Positions 18,588-23,772 of a stretch of 42,361 nucleotides of DNA are shown here, piece after piece (the first letter of the stretch is position 1; each line of letters starts with the position of its first letter). The translations under genes and the position numbers were made by a program. This DNA is from Verrucomicrobiales bacterium (lineage in GTDB: Bacteria; Verrucomicrobiota; Verrucomicrobiia; Verrucomicrobiales; DEV007): contig JAEUHH010000032.1 in NCBI GenBank assembly GCA_016795505.1, positions 1 through 42,361 of the forward strand, read 5' to 3'. The notes below the pieces were generated by a model that had not been told where the DNA came from, searched no databases, and saw only the letters and a list, made by a program, of their open reading frames with translations.

Positions 18588-20165
18588 TCAGGCCGGCGTG
18601 GCGCCGCTGCGCATCAGGAAATACTCGATCGAGTCGACGAGGGCGCCCCAACTGGCTTGGATGATGTTGTAGCTCACGCCCACGGTGCCCCAGCGGTCGT
18701 GACCGTCGGAGCTGAGAATCAGGACGCGCGTCTTTGCCGCCGTGCCCATGTGGCTGTCGATGATGCGGACCTTGTAATCCTCCAGCTCCATCCGGTCGAC
18801 CTGCGGGTAGAAGGGCCGCAGGGCCTTGCGCAGAGCCGCATCGAGGGCATTCACGGGACCATCGCCCTCGGCGACCGTGTACTCCATGTTGCCGTCGACA
18901 CTGAGCCGCACCGTGGCCGAACAGGTTTCGTAGCCGCGATCGGCATCATGGCGGAAGGTGCAGTGATACTCGTGCAGGTCGAAAAAGGGTCGGTAAGTGC
19001 TCAGTTGCTGGCGGATCAGCAGCTCGAACGACGCCTCGGCGGCTTCGAACTCGTAGCCTTCCTGCTCCAGGTCCTTGAGCCGTTGCAGGATCGCCTTGGC
19101 TTCGTCGCCGCCTTTCTCCAGCGGGATGCCCAGCTCCTCGGCCTTCATCAGCACGTTGGATTGACCGGAAAGCTCCGACACGAGGATGCGCTGGCGATTG
19201 CCGACCGTCTCCGGGCGGATGTGCTCGAAGCTGTGCGCCACTTTTTGCACCGCATTCACATGCATGCCGCCCTTGTGGGCAAAGGCCGTGGCTCCAATGT
19301 AGGGCGCGCGGACATTGTGGGCGCAGTTGGCCAGATCATCGACGAACAGTGACAAATCGCGCAGCTGCGAGATGTCCGGGACCACCGGCAGGCCCATCTT
19401 GAGCTGGAGGTTGGGGATCACGGAGGTGAGATTGCAGTTGCCGGTGCGTTCCCCGTAGCCATTCACCGTGCCCTGCACCTGGGTGGCTCCGGAACGGATC
19501 GCGGCTAGGGCGTTGGCCACGCCCAGACCGCAGTCGTCGTGGGTGTGGATGCCGACCGGGATGCCGAACTCTTTCGCCACGATGGCGGCGATCTCCGCGA
19601 CTTCGTGCGGCATGGTGCCGCCATTGGTATCGCAGAGCACCAGCCAGTCCGCGCCGCCGCTCTTTGCCGCGCCCAGGGTAGCCAGGGCGTGTTCGGGATC
19701 GTCCTTGTAGCCGTCGAAGAAATGCTCCGCATCGTAGATCACCTCGCGGCCGTGCGATTTCAGGTAGGCCGTGGTGTCGTGGATCATGGCGCGGTTTTCC
19801 GCCTCCGTCGTGCCGAGGATCTCGGTCACGTGCAGGCGCCAGCTCTTGCCAAAAAAGGTGATTGCCGGCGTGCGGGCGGCGAGGAGCAGGGCGATCTGGG
19901 GGTCGTCCTCCACGGCGGTGTTTTTCCGCCGGGTGCTGCCGAAGGCGGCGATCTTCGCGTGCTTCCACGTCAATTTGGCCGCCTCCTCGAAGAAGGCCAC
20001 GTCCTTTGGATTCGAACCCGGCCAGCCACCCTCGATGTAATCGATCCCGAACTCATCGAGCCGCTGGGCGATGCGAATCTTGTCCAGCGAGCTGAAATTG
20101 ACGCCTTCACCCTGGGTGCCGTCGCGCAGGGTGGTGTCGTAGAGCAGGACCGGTTTGCTGTTCAT
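18588..20165 (-). CDS. cimA: (R)-citramalate synthase
   Basis: 525 residues, matching the CimA family length. It condenses pyruvate and acetyl-CoA to (R)-citramalate, the threonine-independent entry to isoleucine. Seen: the catalytic start LLYDTTLRDGTQGEGVNFS with the Arg-Asp pair, IEGGWPGSNPKD, metal-binding IHTHDDCGLGVANALAAI, NGYGERTGNCNLTSVIPNLQ and the C-terminal LeuA-type regulatory domain (about 400-515). The GWPGSNPKD block distinguishes CimA from isopropylmalate and homocitrate synthases. It is a single gene, convergent with the M23 gene, with a 426-bp region upstream before the subtilase. Confidence 0.93.
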   Translation of the reverse strand: MNSKPVLLYDTTLRDGTQGEGVNFSSLDKIRIAQRLDEFGIDYIEGGWPGSNPKDVAFFEEAAKLTWKHAKIAAFGSTRRKNTAVEDDPQIALLLAARTPAITFFGKSWRLHVTEILGTTEAENRAMIHDTTAYLKSHGREVIYDAEHFFDGYKDDPEHALATLGAAKSGGADWLVLCDTNGGTMPHEVAEIAAIVAKEFGIPVGIHTHDDCGLGVANALAAIRSGATQVQGTVNGYGERTGNCNLTSVIPNLQLKMGLPVVPDISQLRDLSLFVDDLANCAHNVRAPYIGATAFAHKGGMHVNAVQKVAHSFEHIRPETVGNRQRILVSELSGQSNVLMKAEELGIPLEKGGDEAKAILQRLKDLEQEGYEFEAAEASFELLIRQQLSTYRPFFDLHEYHCTFRHDADRGYETCSATVRLSVDGNMEYTVAEGDGPVNALDAALRKALRPFYPQVDRMELEDYKVRIIDSHMGTAAKTRVLILSSDGHDRWGTVGVSYNIIQASWGALVDSIEYFLMRSGATPA

Positions 20166-20591: not shown

Positions 20592-22193
20592 ATGAAATCG
20601 AAACGTTATTTGATCCTGCCCATGGAGGGCATCCGCCTGTCGGACGCGCCCACGATCAATCTGCCGAGAGCGTTTGATTTGTTGAACAAACTGCAGCCCG
20701 GCAACAAATCGGGTGTGGCATCGCTTAGCAAAAGATTGGCGGCTGAGATCAAAGGTGGTCGATCCCGCGTAAAAACCGCCAAAACAGCAAAAATGAGCCC
20801 GTCTGAGCCCCCTCAACTGGAGGTGGTCAAATCGCTCAATGAAGATGGCGTGAAATTAGTGATGGCGACCGAAGAGATGGTCGTAGCCATGAGGCTTCAC
20901 AATCCTGGTATCCGGATTGTGGAGGAGAAATTTTGCCGTCCGGCTTTGGCGCCGCGGGTCTCGGTCCCATCCCGCCCGAAACGAGCGGCTCGATCAGCGG
21001 CGCCGGCCAAAGTTGCAGTTGCCAAACCCCTTACCATCCAAGTGTTGAGAGATGGAGTTGGAACGCCAGACAAAGGAGCGGAAGTCATCGCCTTTCGCAC
21101 TTCAGATGATGCCCTGAAAGGAAAAACCAATGCTTCGGGCAAGGTGTCCCTTCGATTCGGAACCGCGGTTTCCAAACTGAGGCGGCTGTATGTTTATCAC
21201 GAAGAGGCTGGCATCTGGGGCTACTTTTCCCGGAACGTGGCGGTTTCGCCCTCGGGTGATTTTGAGGTGCGCCTCGCGCCGATCGATCTTTCGGCGGCAG
21301 ACGCGCTGCGGCATTTTCATGGCCCGGGAAGTCTTGCCGACGGCGAAGGGGTCAGGGTGGGCATCATCGATTCGGGAACAGATCCTGACCACCCGGACCT
21401 TAAGGACGCGATTGAGGGCGGGGCCAATTGCGTGCCCGGCTCGAGTCGTAAGGGTGATGATTTCGGTCCCGATGGAGCGCATGGCACTCATGTGGCCGGA
21501 ATCGTTGCCGCCCGGGGCAGTTCGCCGACTGGGATGAGGGGCGTCGCCCCCGGGGCGAAATTGCGCATCTACCGGGTGTTTGAATCGGGCAACGAAGGTG
21601 ACGGTTCCAGTTTTGCGATCATTGACGCCATCGAACGGGCAATTGACGACCGTTGCGACATCATCAATCTGAGCCTGGCCTTTCCGCCTGGCGTGATCGA
21701 CGATGCCATATCCGACGCTCTCAGGAAGGCTCGAAACCACGGGATTCTGGCGGTCGCGGCAGCAGGCAATGATGGCCGGCAACCGGTGTCATTTCCAGGT
21801 TCTGACAGCCACTGCGTCGCTGTCTCGGCCGCAGGCCGAAAGAAGACGTTCCCGGCAACGGCCACGGAAGTGGACGACGTGGCAGCACCCTACGGCAACG
21901 ACCCAGGCGATTTTCTGGGGGCATTTTCCAACGTGGGCGGCGAGTTGGATGCCACTGGGGCGGGAGTCGGCGTGGTTTCCACCTTTCCGGGAGGCTATGG
22001 CGCGATGAGTGGCACTTCGATGGCCTGTCCGGCAGTTTCGGGAGTCGCTGCGAGAATCCTTTCCAAAAATGCGGGTGTGATGTCCATGCCGAGAGATGCT
22101 GCCCGGTGCGATGCCATTCGCGGTCTGTTGATGGATGCCTGTATGCCGTTGGGGTTTGACCTTCTGTTTGAGGGGGGCGGACTTCCGAAGTAG
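20592..22193 (+). CDS. subtilisin-like serine peptidase (S8) with propeptide-like and beta-sandwich domains
   Basis: 533 residues, no signal peptide or membrane segment (start MKSKRYLILPMEGIRLSDAP). Residues 75-115 (LEVVKSLNEDGVKLVMATEE to NPGIRIVEEKF) resemble an I9-type propeptide. Residues 147-232 look like a transthyretin/carboxypeptidase-regulatory beta sandwich (TPDKGAEVIAFRTSDDALKG). The S8 domain has its full triad: Asp260 in VGIIDSGTDPDHPDL, His297 in HGTHVAG, Ser476 in GTSMACPAVSG, with oxyanion Asn393 in AAAGNDG. The small gene starting 9 bp downstream is probably cotranscribed. GC is slightly below that of neighbours. Without a signal peptide, cytoplasmic action or unusual export is implied. 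Confidence 0.9.
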   Translation: MKSKRYLILPMEGIRLSDAPTINLPRAFDLLNKLQPGNKSGVASLSKRLAAEIKGGRSRVKTAKTAKMSPSEPPQLEVVKSLNEDGVKLVMATEEMVVAMRLHNPGIRIVEEKFCRPALAPRVSVPSRPKRAARSAAPAKVAVAKPLTIQVLRDGVGTPDKGAEVIAFRTSDDALKGKTNASGKVSLRFGTAVSKLRRLYVYHEEAGIWGYFSRNVAVSPSGDFEVRLAPIDLSAADALRHFHGPGSLADGEGVRVGIIDSGTDPDHPDLKDAIEGGANCVPGSSRKGDDFGPDGAHGTHVAGIVAARGSSPTGMRGVAPGAKLRIYRVFESGNEGDGSSFAIIDAIERAIDDRCDIINLSLAFPPGVIDDAISDALRKARNHGILAVAAAGNDGRQPVSFPGSDSHCVAVSAAGRKKTFPATATEVDDVAAPYGNDPGDFLGAFSNVGGELDATGAGVGVVSTFPGGYGAMSGTSMACPAVSGVAARILSKNAGVMSMPRDAARCDAIRGLLMDACMPLGFDLLFEGGGLPK

Positions 22194-22202
22194 AGTCTTG
22201 TC

Positions 22203-22439
22203 ATGTCTAGATTCACGCTATATCGCGGAGAGGACGCTCCCGTGTCCGACGCCGATGATTTGTTGCGTTCCGCGGGTGCGAAAGTCATCGCCTCCCGCCC
22301 AGGATTGGTCCTCATAGAGGCCAGCGACAGCGTCGCTGATGATCTGTCGAAGTCACTGGTTGGCTGGAGAGTGACGGCTGAGAGGGTGGCGGCGATCCGA
22401 CCGCCGCGGCCGAGAGTTCCCAAAAAGGTTAAGGAATAG
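22203..22439 (+). CDS. 78-residue subtilase partner, possible stand-alone propeptide/inhibitor
   Basis: 78 residues, 9 bp after the subtilase stop, ATG start with only a weak GTAGAG ribosome site. No known family is certain. The pattern AGAKVIASRPGLVLIEASDS, VADDLSKSLVGWRVTAERVA and a Pro/Lys-rich tail suggests beta-alpha-beta with a C-terminal strand, similar to the I9 propeptide fold and to the N-terminal part of the neighbouring subtilase. This suggests a trans-acting inhibitor or folding aid, or an immunity partner. The last 11 bp overlap the convergent glycosyltransferase gene. The inhibitor role is inference. Confidence 0.65.
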   Translation: MSRFTLYRGEDAPVSDADDLLRSAGAKVIASRPGLVLIEASDSVADDLSKSLVGWRVTAERVAAIRPPRPRVPKKVKE

Positions 22440-23772
22440 CGTTTTCAGATCGATGGGTTTTCGTATCGGCAGGGACGCCACTCCCGATCGCCTCCGCATA
22501 GCAGCCCTCCAGAGCGGCGATCTGCTCGGCAAAGCCAAACTTTTCCCGCACCGACACATGGGCCTGCCGGGAAAAGCGGGCCAGCAGGGCCGGGTCGTCG
22601 AGCAGTTCCAGAATGGCTGACGCGAGGGCGGCGGGATCCTTTTCCGGCACCAGCAGACCGTCCGTGCCGCTCGCGACCGCCTCGGGGATGCCTCCGTGGG
22701 TCGTCGCCACGATCGGCAGACCGGCGGCCATGGCTTCGACCATCGCATTCGGCACGCCTTCCTGATCGGATGTCTCGGTCAGTTCGCTGGGATGCAAAAA
22801 GGCGTGGGCGCGGGCAAATTCCGCCCTCAGCCGGTCCTGATCGACCCAGCCGAGCAGTTCCACGTGCGCCTCCAGTCCCGCCGCACGCACCGCGTCGCGG
22901 AAGCGCGCCTCGTCCGGGCCGGTGCCGGCGAGGACGAACTTCAGACGAGGCCAGCGAGCCACCACGGTCGGGAGCGCCTGGAGGGTGGTGAACAGTCCCT
23001 TTTTGGGAATCAGGCGGCAGGCCTGGAGCAGCCGCCATTCGCCCGATTCCGGCGGCCGACGCTCGGCAAAGGTGATGTCGTCGAGCGGCACCGGCGTCCG
23101 GTTGAGCCGCAGCTTTTCAGGAGGGCATCCCAAGTCCCGCAGGCGGTCGAGCAGTGACTCGCTCCGCGCCAGGACCAGTCTGGCCTCGGCAAACACCTGA
23201 CGGAGCCCTTCCAGATAGCCCGGCCGATCGATGAACTTGACCACATCCACCCCGTGGAAGGACACCAGCCAGGGCACTCCGCTGGCCTGAAGCATCCGAC
23301 GGTATTTCACCGCCTTGTGGCCGTAATAGACATGCACCAAAGCCGGCTGCCACGCGGTCAGCAGATCGACCAAGTCGTAAGGGTGATAGTACTGGCCCGC
23401 ATTTCCCACATGACCGATCGGCACCGGCGGTGGCCACTGTTTGATGACGTGCTTGTAGTAGAAACGCTTCACGAAATTGCCCCGATAGCGGGGTTCGGTC
23501 CGTTTCTCCATCTTCACGACCGGTTCGAAGGGGAATTCCGCCACATTTTCCACCTGCTCGGCGAAGACGACGGTCCGAAATTCGCGCAGATGGGCGATCT
23601 GCCGGTAGAGACTCTGCATCTCCCGTTTCAGGTAAGTGCCGCACAGGCTGACGACCAGCGGGCGCGGGTCGTCGGCAGTCGGGGGAGTCGGTTGAGGCTC
23701 GGTCACGGCAAAAAGGTGGACGGTCGGGGCGGCAATGTGTCGCAGAGTGGCCCGCCGCCAGCCGGTTTTCAC
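22429..23772 (-). CDS. glycosyltransferase family 4
   Basis: 447 residues from a GTG at 23772 (the weakest point: an AGGT lies immediately upstream; a start further in is possible). Two Rossmann-like halves of a GT-B fold: N-terminal VVSLCGTYLKREMQSLYRQI, VHVYYGHKAVKYRRML and WLVSFHGVDVVKF; C-terminal GRxxxKKG-type RLIPKKGLFTTLQALPTVV, FVLAGTGPDEARFRDAV and the nucleotide-sugar EGVPNAMVEAMAAGLPIVAT with the EX7E-type pattern. It resembles retaining transferases of cell-surface polysaccharide pathways such as colanic acid. The donor and acceptor cannot be read. It converges on the small subtilase partner. Confidence 0.88.
   Translation of the reverse strand: MKTGWRRATLRHIAAPTVHLFAVTEPQPTPPTADDPRPLVVSLCGTYLKREMQSLYRQIAHLREFRTVVFAEQVENVAEFPFEPVVKMEKRTEPRYRGNFVKRFYYKHVIKQWPPPVPIGHVGNAGQYYHPYDLVDLLTAWQPALVHVYYGHKAVKYRRMLQASGVPWLVSFHGVDVVKFIDRPGYLEGLRQVFAEARLVLARSESLLDRLRDLGCPPEKLRLNRTPVPLDDITFAERRPPESGEWRLLQACRLIPKKGLFTTLQALPTVVARWPRLKFVLAGTGPDEARFRDAVRAAGLEAHVELLGWVDQDRLRAEFARAHAFLHPSELTETSDQEGVPNAMVEAMAAGLPIVATTHGGIPEAVASGTDGLLVPEKDPAALASAILELLDDPALLARFSRQAHVSVREKFGFAEQIAALEGCYAEAIGSGVPADTKTHRSENAIP

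Follow-up and report, generated by a model that had tools for sequence, protein, structure and literature searches.

A leaderless subtilase and a small downstream protein of predicted propeptide fold form a two-gene pair in a Verrucomicrobiales bacterium

The stretch of DNA analysed here (hereafter the window) comprises 42,361 nucleotides of contig JAEUHH010000032.1 (assembly GCA_016795505.1) from a Verrucomicrobiales bacterium. It carries on its forward strand a gene for a subtilase of 533 residues (20592-22193) and, after a gap of 9 nucleotides, a gene for a protein of 78 residues (22203-22439). These coordinates are those proposed by a first-pass annotation made from the sequence alone, in which the subtilase was described as an enzyme with a full catalytic triad, an internal propeptide-like part, an inserted beta sandwich and no export signal, and the small protein as a second, detached propeptide; each of these descriptions was borne out, those of the propeptide-like part, the sandwich and the small protein as predictions. 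The small gene is in frame after the TAG stop of the subtilase, and the gap and common orientation suggest that the two genes share a single transcript. The features of the pair are the following:

20592..22193, + strand: leaderless S8 subtilase, 533 residues (Peptidase_S8, E 1.7e-46)
20592..20942, + strand: predicted cis propeptide-like domain, residues 1-117 (AlphaFold2 (AF2) model superposed, with the catalytic domain, on 3whi_B)
21027..21281, + strand: predicted inserted beta sandwich, carboxypeptidase-regulatory/transthyretin-like, about residues 146-230 (AF2-predicted strands 147-228)
21342..22136, + strand: catalytic domain, residues 251-515 (Pfam PF00082)
21369..21371, + strand: codon of catalytic Asp260 (invariant column)
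21480..21482, + strand: codon of catalytic His297 (invariant column)
21768..21770, + strand: codon of oxyanion-hole Asn393 (invariant column)
22017..22019, + strand: codon of catalytic Ser476 (invariant column)
22203..22439, + strand: small partner, 78 residues, predicted propeptide fold with strands (E) and helices (H) E2-8, H17-23, E27-32, E35-40, H42-51, E55-59 (AF2 model, structure searches)
22380..22436, + strand: Pro-rich basic C-terminal tail of the small protein, residues 60-78 (Pro and basic positions conserved in the family)

The protease is a member of family S8. In fact, it combines a Peptidase_S8 domain, which is its only Pfam match, with an Asp-His-Ser triad and an oxyanion Asn, and the four residues occupy invariant columns in the first nine-member family alignment, where homologues are 33-47% identical. 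The absence of an export signal is indicated by the most hydrophobic 19-residue stretch within the first 60 residues, which reaches only 0.58 on the Kyte-Doolittle scale; the same maximum stays at or below 1.45 throughout the family, and the hydrophobicity check likewise gave no leader-like stretch in the small protein. The region of the predicted beta sandwich has a weak CarboxypepD_reg match in one homologue (L024; E 8e-4, below the Pfam cutoff). Among PADLOC models, the one named 'subtilase' matches the window protease (6e-41) and the IetS profile matches it weakly (4e-13).

The N-terminal part of the protease is predicted to be a propeptide held in cis, composed of a strand (4-9), a long variable insert, two strands (77-81 and 88-92), a helix (94-103) and a last strand (108-111). 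The AF2 input was a stop-read-through fusion (TAG read as Q, in frame) that joins protease and partner in one chain; the resulting model has a mean predicted local distance difference test score (pLDDT) of 61.6, with parts of the catalytic domain at low confidence. Its residues 2-530 align on unprocessed pro-subtilisin E (3whi_B) with Z 25.7 over 301 residues, against about 227 residues, some 74 fewer, for catalytic-only chains; therefore the predicted N-terminal domain would be seated as a propeptide sits. In this read-through model the canonical propeptide site is occupied by the cis propeptide. Neither the cis prodomain stretch nor the small protein is matched by the Inhibitor_I9 Pfam profile.

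The small open reading frame (ORF) is a real gene, because homologues lie directly downstream of related subtilases and because it is under purifying selection, with a median usable ratio of nonsynonymous to synonymous substitution rates (dN/dS) of 0.15 in Rhizobiaceae (0.07 for the protease). An AF2 model of its product, built from eight window and locus sequences, has strands 2-8, 27-32, 35-40 and 55-59 and helices 17-23 and 42-51, with pLDDT 77. In structure comparison this model ranked first the subtilisin BPN' prosegment (1spb_P, Z 8.3, 65 residues aligned, 2.7 Å) and second another subtilisin prosegment (1scj_B, Z 8.2), and propeptides or pro-subtilisins made up 8 of the 11 leading rows. 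Foldseek placed first 3wqb_B, the external chaperone ORF2 of the Aeromonas protease ASP (E 0.015). The small protein is thus predicted to have a subtilisin-propeptide fold and not, as the first-pass annotation had allowed for, an unrelated one. Moreover, an alignment program placed the small proteins, unprompted, on the N-terminus of the protease. From these models the protease appears to be served by a trans as well as a cis propeptide.

Relatives that span most of the subtilase are rare, and the window organism's own family yielded none among 74 further genomes. A protease-only profile of the N-terminal region (cis propeptide and sandwich, catalytic part excluded) matched in 2 of 387 genomes of the phylum and in 5 of 297 from the family to which one Rhizobiaceae locus belongs, and scans of plasmids and genomes added further Alpha- and Betaproteobacteria and two loci in Planctomycetota. 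Viral contigs gave no relative, and phage matches, which have only the S8 part in common, were set aside; so were the tandem subtilases L007 and L008 of genome G006, which look like exported enzymes and share only the S8 domain, and L010, a spurious single-sequence match of the small protein with unrelated genes around it.

The pairing of subtilase and small partner is a rule. Among the 22 loci that could be assessed, from Verrucomicrobia-like bacteria, Alpha- and Betaproteobacteria, the partner lies directly 3' of the protease in 20 (the window, L009, L011, L012/L020 from one strain, L013, L014, L015, L016, L018, L021, L022 with the identical L023, L024, L025, L026, L028, L029, L053, L054, L055 and L056), and it lies beside all seven proteases recovered by the protease-only profile (7/7), so that homologous subtilases do not, as a rule, lack it. 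In these 20 distinct loci the downstream ORF has about 78-93 codons with a common pattern, and its spacing from the protease ranges in relatives from -17 to +106 nucleotides. Read in the other direction, the small gene adjoins the protease in every plasmid record that contains it (7/7), and it is single-copy in each of six genomes searched whole. In L012/L020 the small gene is unannotated in the plasmid record, and L009 (genome G325), a true single-sequence match within the phylum, has it directly 3' of a homologous subtilase. The partner is reduced to a frameshifted remnant in L017, and the sequence of L027 stops inside the gene. In the Planctomycetota protease L019 (6725-8338) the oxyanion position reads AAGDDF and the serine site GTSQACA; this enzyme is possibly a degenerate one or a pseudoprotease.

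A distant subfamily (L029, L053-L056) owes its membership to position, size and pattern; its small proteins are barely alignable to the others (hhalign P 0.023) and terminate in a conserved LMEPISPF-type tail, and that of L029 was left out of later profiles. The tail in L053-L056 (Rhizobiaceae) recalls, and is not identical to, the LIPY/F motif of intracellular subtilisins.

The flanks of the pair in the window are a synthase-like gene, an M23 peptidase gene and a glycosyltransferase gene, two of which delimit the site considered here:

18588..20165, - strand: alpha-isopropylmalate/citramalate-synthase-like gene (named from our own reading of its sequence)
22429..23772, - strand: glycosyltransferase, its 3' end overlapping the 3' end of the small gene (Pfam)

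Orthologues of the synthase-like gene are 87-88% identical in all three congeneric genomes (3/3), and the slot that follows it holds a rhodanese-YceI gene in these congeners and the subtilase pair in the window genome. On the far side of the slot, G061 has an orthologue of the glycosyltransferase (73%), and the G062 contig runs as far as the end of a glycosyltransferase. The rhodanese-YceI fusion gene was located in G061 (L041:4212-5147), with homologues in G062 and G063; no relative of it was detected elsewhere in the window genome. The two genes of the pair have a GC content at third codon positions (GC3) of 0.62 and 0.66, lower than the values of 0.85 and 0.77 for the two flanks. Because the slot is occupied differently in congeners and GC3 is low, the pair looks like acquired, exchangeable cargo.

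Among the closest known systems is ASP/ORF2 of Aeromonas sobria (PDB 3wqb; PMC5638518), where ORF2 reaches the catalytic site with its C-terminal region and inhibits ASP at a half-maximal inhibitory concentration of 84 nM. As at the window, a small gene lies directly downstream of the subtilase (with a gap of 9 nucleotides in our case) and the small protein, for which ORF2 is the top Foldseek match, has a propeptide-like fold, predicted in the window. Unlike the window proteins, which both lack an export signal, ASP is extracellular; it is also described as propeptide-deficient, whereas the window protease has a cis propeptide according to model and alignment. A profile search of the PDB detected no sequence similarity to ORF2, although 3wqb_B leads the Foldseek matches. 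Separate small proteins of propeptide fold that act on a subtilase are also known among the I9 inhibitors SUB1-ProM, Pleurotus POIA1 and the yeast peptidase B inhibitor; SUB1-ProM is a stand-alone propeptide-like inhibitor whose gene, like that of the window protein, adjoins subtilase genes (PMC6993865). These proteins are eukaryotic, SUB1-ProM acts in a secretory compartment, and no sequence similarity to them was detected.

Intracellular subtilisins (PMC6220982; PDB 2wv7, 2x8j, 6f9m) are leaderless like the window protease and are among its better structural matches (Z about 24), but they have a short LIPY/F propeptide, without an I9-like prodomain or sandwich, where the window protease has a prodomain of about 117 residues and a sandwich; moreover the inhibitor reported for them, IPI, is of Ig-like fold (PMC3901451). 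The anti-phage system IetAS, made of an AAA ATPase and an S8 protease, resembles the pair in having an S8 protease in a mobile context and in the weak IetS match. Unlike IetS, the window protease has no AAA partner, IetA not being adjacent to it, and has a small partner instead. No description of this subtilase-small protein pair was found in the open-access literature.

We interpret the pair, with a probability of about 0.7, as a horizontally mobile two-gene module in which a cytosolic subtilase is under double propeptide control. In the proposed mechanism the protease's own N-terminal propeptide would dock against its catalytic domain in the manner of unprocessed pro-subtilisin, and the co-translated small protein would be a second, detached propeptide-like protein. 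The latter would attach in trans to that face of the catalytic domain which the cis propeptide covers, its Pro-containing tail lying in the active-site cleft at the C-terminal end as a putative plug, and would act as folding chaperone and inhibitor. A protease freed from its cis propeptide would then be kept off in the cytosol until, following some trigger, the small protein is displaced or degraded. By analogy with ASP/ORF2 and SUB1-ProM, binding in trans, assistance in folding and inhibition of the enzyme that has lost its cis propeptide are the most likely functions of the small protein. Owing to a conserved Pro close to its tail, the small protein may be cut poorly by the protease, much as the Pro of the LIPY/F motif hinders cleavage in intracellular subtilisins (PMC6220982). 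The pair is best described as a novel version of the known external-propeptide theme, with binding and inhibition presumed from these analogies.

The reading of the small protein as a detached propeptide is well supported at the level of fold and synteny; several results weigh against it. Foldseek gave no match under E 0.001, and variants of ribosomal S6 score nearly as high as the prosegments (Z 8.1); therefore the fold is common to unrelated proteins and does not prove a function by itself. The small protein matches no Pfam (E up to 5), NCBIfam or PADLOC model, and its family profile gave only chance repeat matches, and no sequence match to propeptides, in the PDB. When the profile of the small protein was compared with that of the cis propeptide, the similarity (hhalign P 0.006, probability 6%, 41 columns) was only suggestive, since on rerun 2 of 150 column shuffles were equally good. 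The correlation between protease and small-protein distances (r 0.98, with 0 of 5000 permutations as good) is expected for any two co-inherited genes. Finally, the L019 protease has no partner, besides carrying an Asp at the oxyanion position.

The first-pass annotation had read the pair as a controlled-activation system in immunity, cell death or spore/coat-like processing. The structural half of this proposal stands, on fold and pairing, while its functional half stays hypothetical; the flanks of the pair in the window are not a defence island. Relatives differ in their surroundings, some lying beside TmtA, IetAS, TIR/CHAT or nuclease genes and others among metabolic genes or next to tyrosinase. 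Endonuclease_NS, alone or fused to Trypsin_2, lies directly 3' of the pair in Rhizobium CIAT894, two Ensifer and an Agrobacterium Ti plasmid. At L013 (7626-9758) and L016 (7602-9725) the annotated DNA/RNA non-specific endonuclease is a Trypsin_2-Endonuclease_NS fusion; in homologues on other plasmids (H93, H106, H108) the trypsin part is joined to a phospholipase-D-like domain. On a plasmid of Cupriavidus sp. EM10 the degenerate homologue of the window protease has a true IetA-IetS pair (L017:850-4069; PADLOC 1e-117 and 4e-112) close by on its upstream side. On Agrobacterium pTi CFBP5877 (L016:94-5417) a cluster of CHAT, a second S8 and a ThsB-like TIR is divergent from the subtilase pair and is possibly a conflict system of its own.

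These neighbours, given as a plain listing with no enrichment claimed over background, bear on the alternative that survives best, that of an immunity or cell-death module, which we regard as a tentative possibility. The small protein would be lost on infection or damage, and the subtilase would activate a toxic effector (trypsin-nuclease fusion, nuclease or phenol oxidase) or kill by general proteolysis. The patchy distribution (2/387 genomes of the phylum, 5/297 in the Rhizobiaceae-centred sample), the variable slot and low GC3 in the window, and the PADLOC 'subtilase' match are consistent with it, as are the full-length TmtA at L015 (1557 bits), IetA/IetS at L017, the TIR, CHAT and second S8 at L016, and Endonuclease_NS with or without Trypsin_2 directly downstream in L013, L016 and L022. 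However, neither the window pair nor L009 has an effector or defence gene beside it, many further plasmids carry trypsin-nuclease homologues although no member of this subtilase family was detected on them, and several relatives lie among metabolic genes. A version that joins this idea to double propeptide control, with a mobile, doubly locked zymogen subtilase whose release would activate interchangeable effectors (trypsin-nuclease, nuclease, phenol oxidase) in a conflict or cell-death module, is more doubtful.

Somewhat less probable again is that the small protein is a folding chaperone only, in the manner of ORF2, without lasting inhibition, or that its ferredoxin-like fold serves a role unrelated to the protease. 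Maturation of ASP does require ORF2 (PMC5638518), and other ferredoxin-like proteins score similarly in structure comparison. But a trans chaperone would be redundant because the subtilase already has a cis propeptide, and the conserved Pro-containing tail would suit an uncleaved plug, by comparison with the LIPY/F Pro (PMC6220982).

Least probable among the alternatives retained is a maturation protease that processes a co-encoded or local client, such as tyrosinase with PpoB2 or multicopper oxidase in Rhizobiaceae, with the small protein limiting self-destruction. It would account for the tyrosinase (with DUF7868) and the PpoB2 copper chaperone identified by Pfam downstream of the pair in L021, for the PpoB2 of L015, separated from the pair by a tyrosinase according to the annotation of the record, for the related ORF that follows in L024, and for the multicopper oxidase close by in L011, L015 and L024. 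The neighbour is not constant, however: it may be a nuclease, a tyrosinase or a multicopper oxidase, or be missing. The window lacks all three, and no nuclease homologue was found in its genome. Spore or coat processing was dropped, as no gene pointed to it.

With double propeptide control of a cytosolic subtilase as the preferred reading, the pair would extend what is known of propeptides acting in trans, so far described for ASP/ORF2, a single group of exported bacterial proteases, and for a small number of inhibitors in eukaryotes. What is new here is a leaderless family that, according to the models, combines a retained cis propeptide with an additional trans one, the pairing being found across at least two phyla, with a small protein unannotated in the libraries searched. 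The family may offer a compact setting for telling apart what propeptides do as chaperones from what they do as inhibitors. Should the pair gate a toxic or maturing cytosolic protease, it would represent a new regulatory design for bacterial proteolysis.
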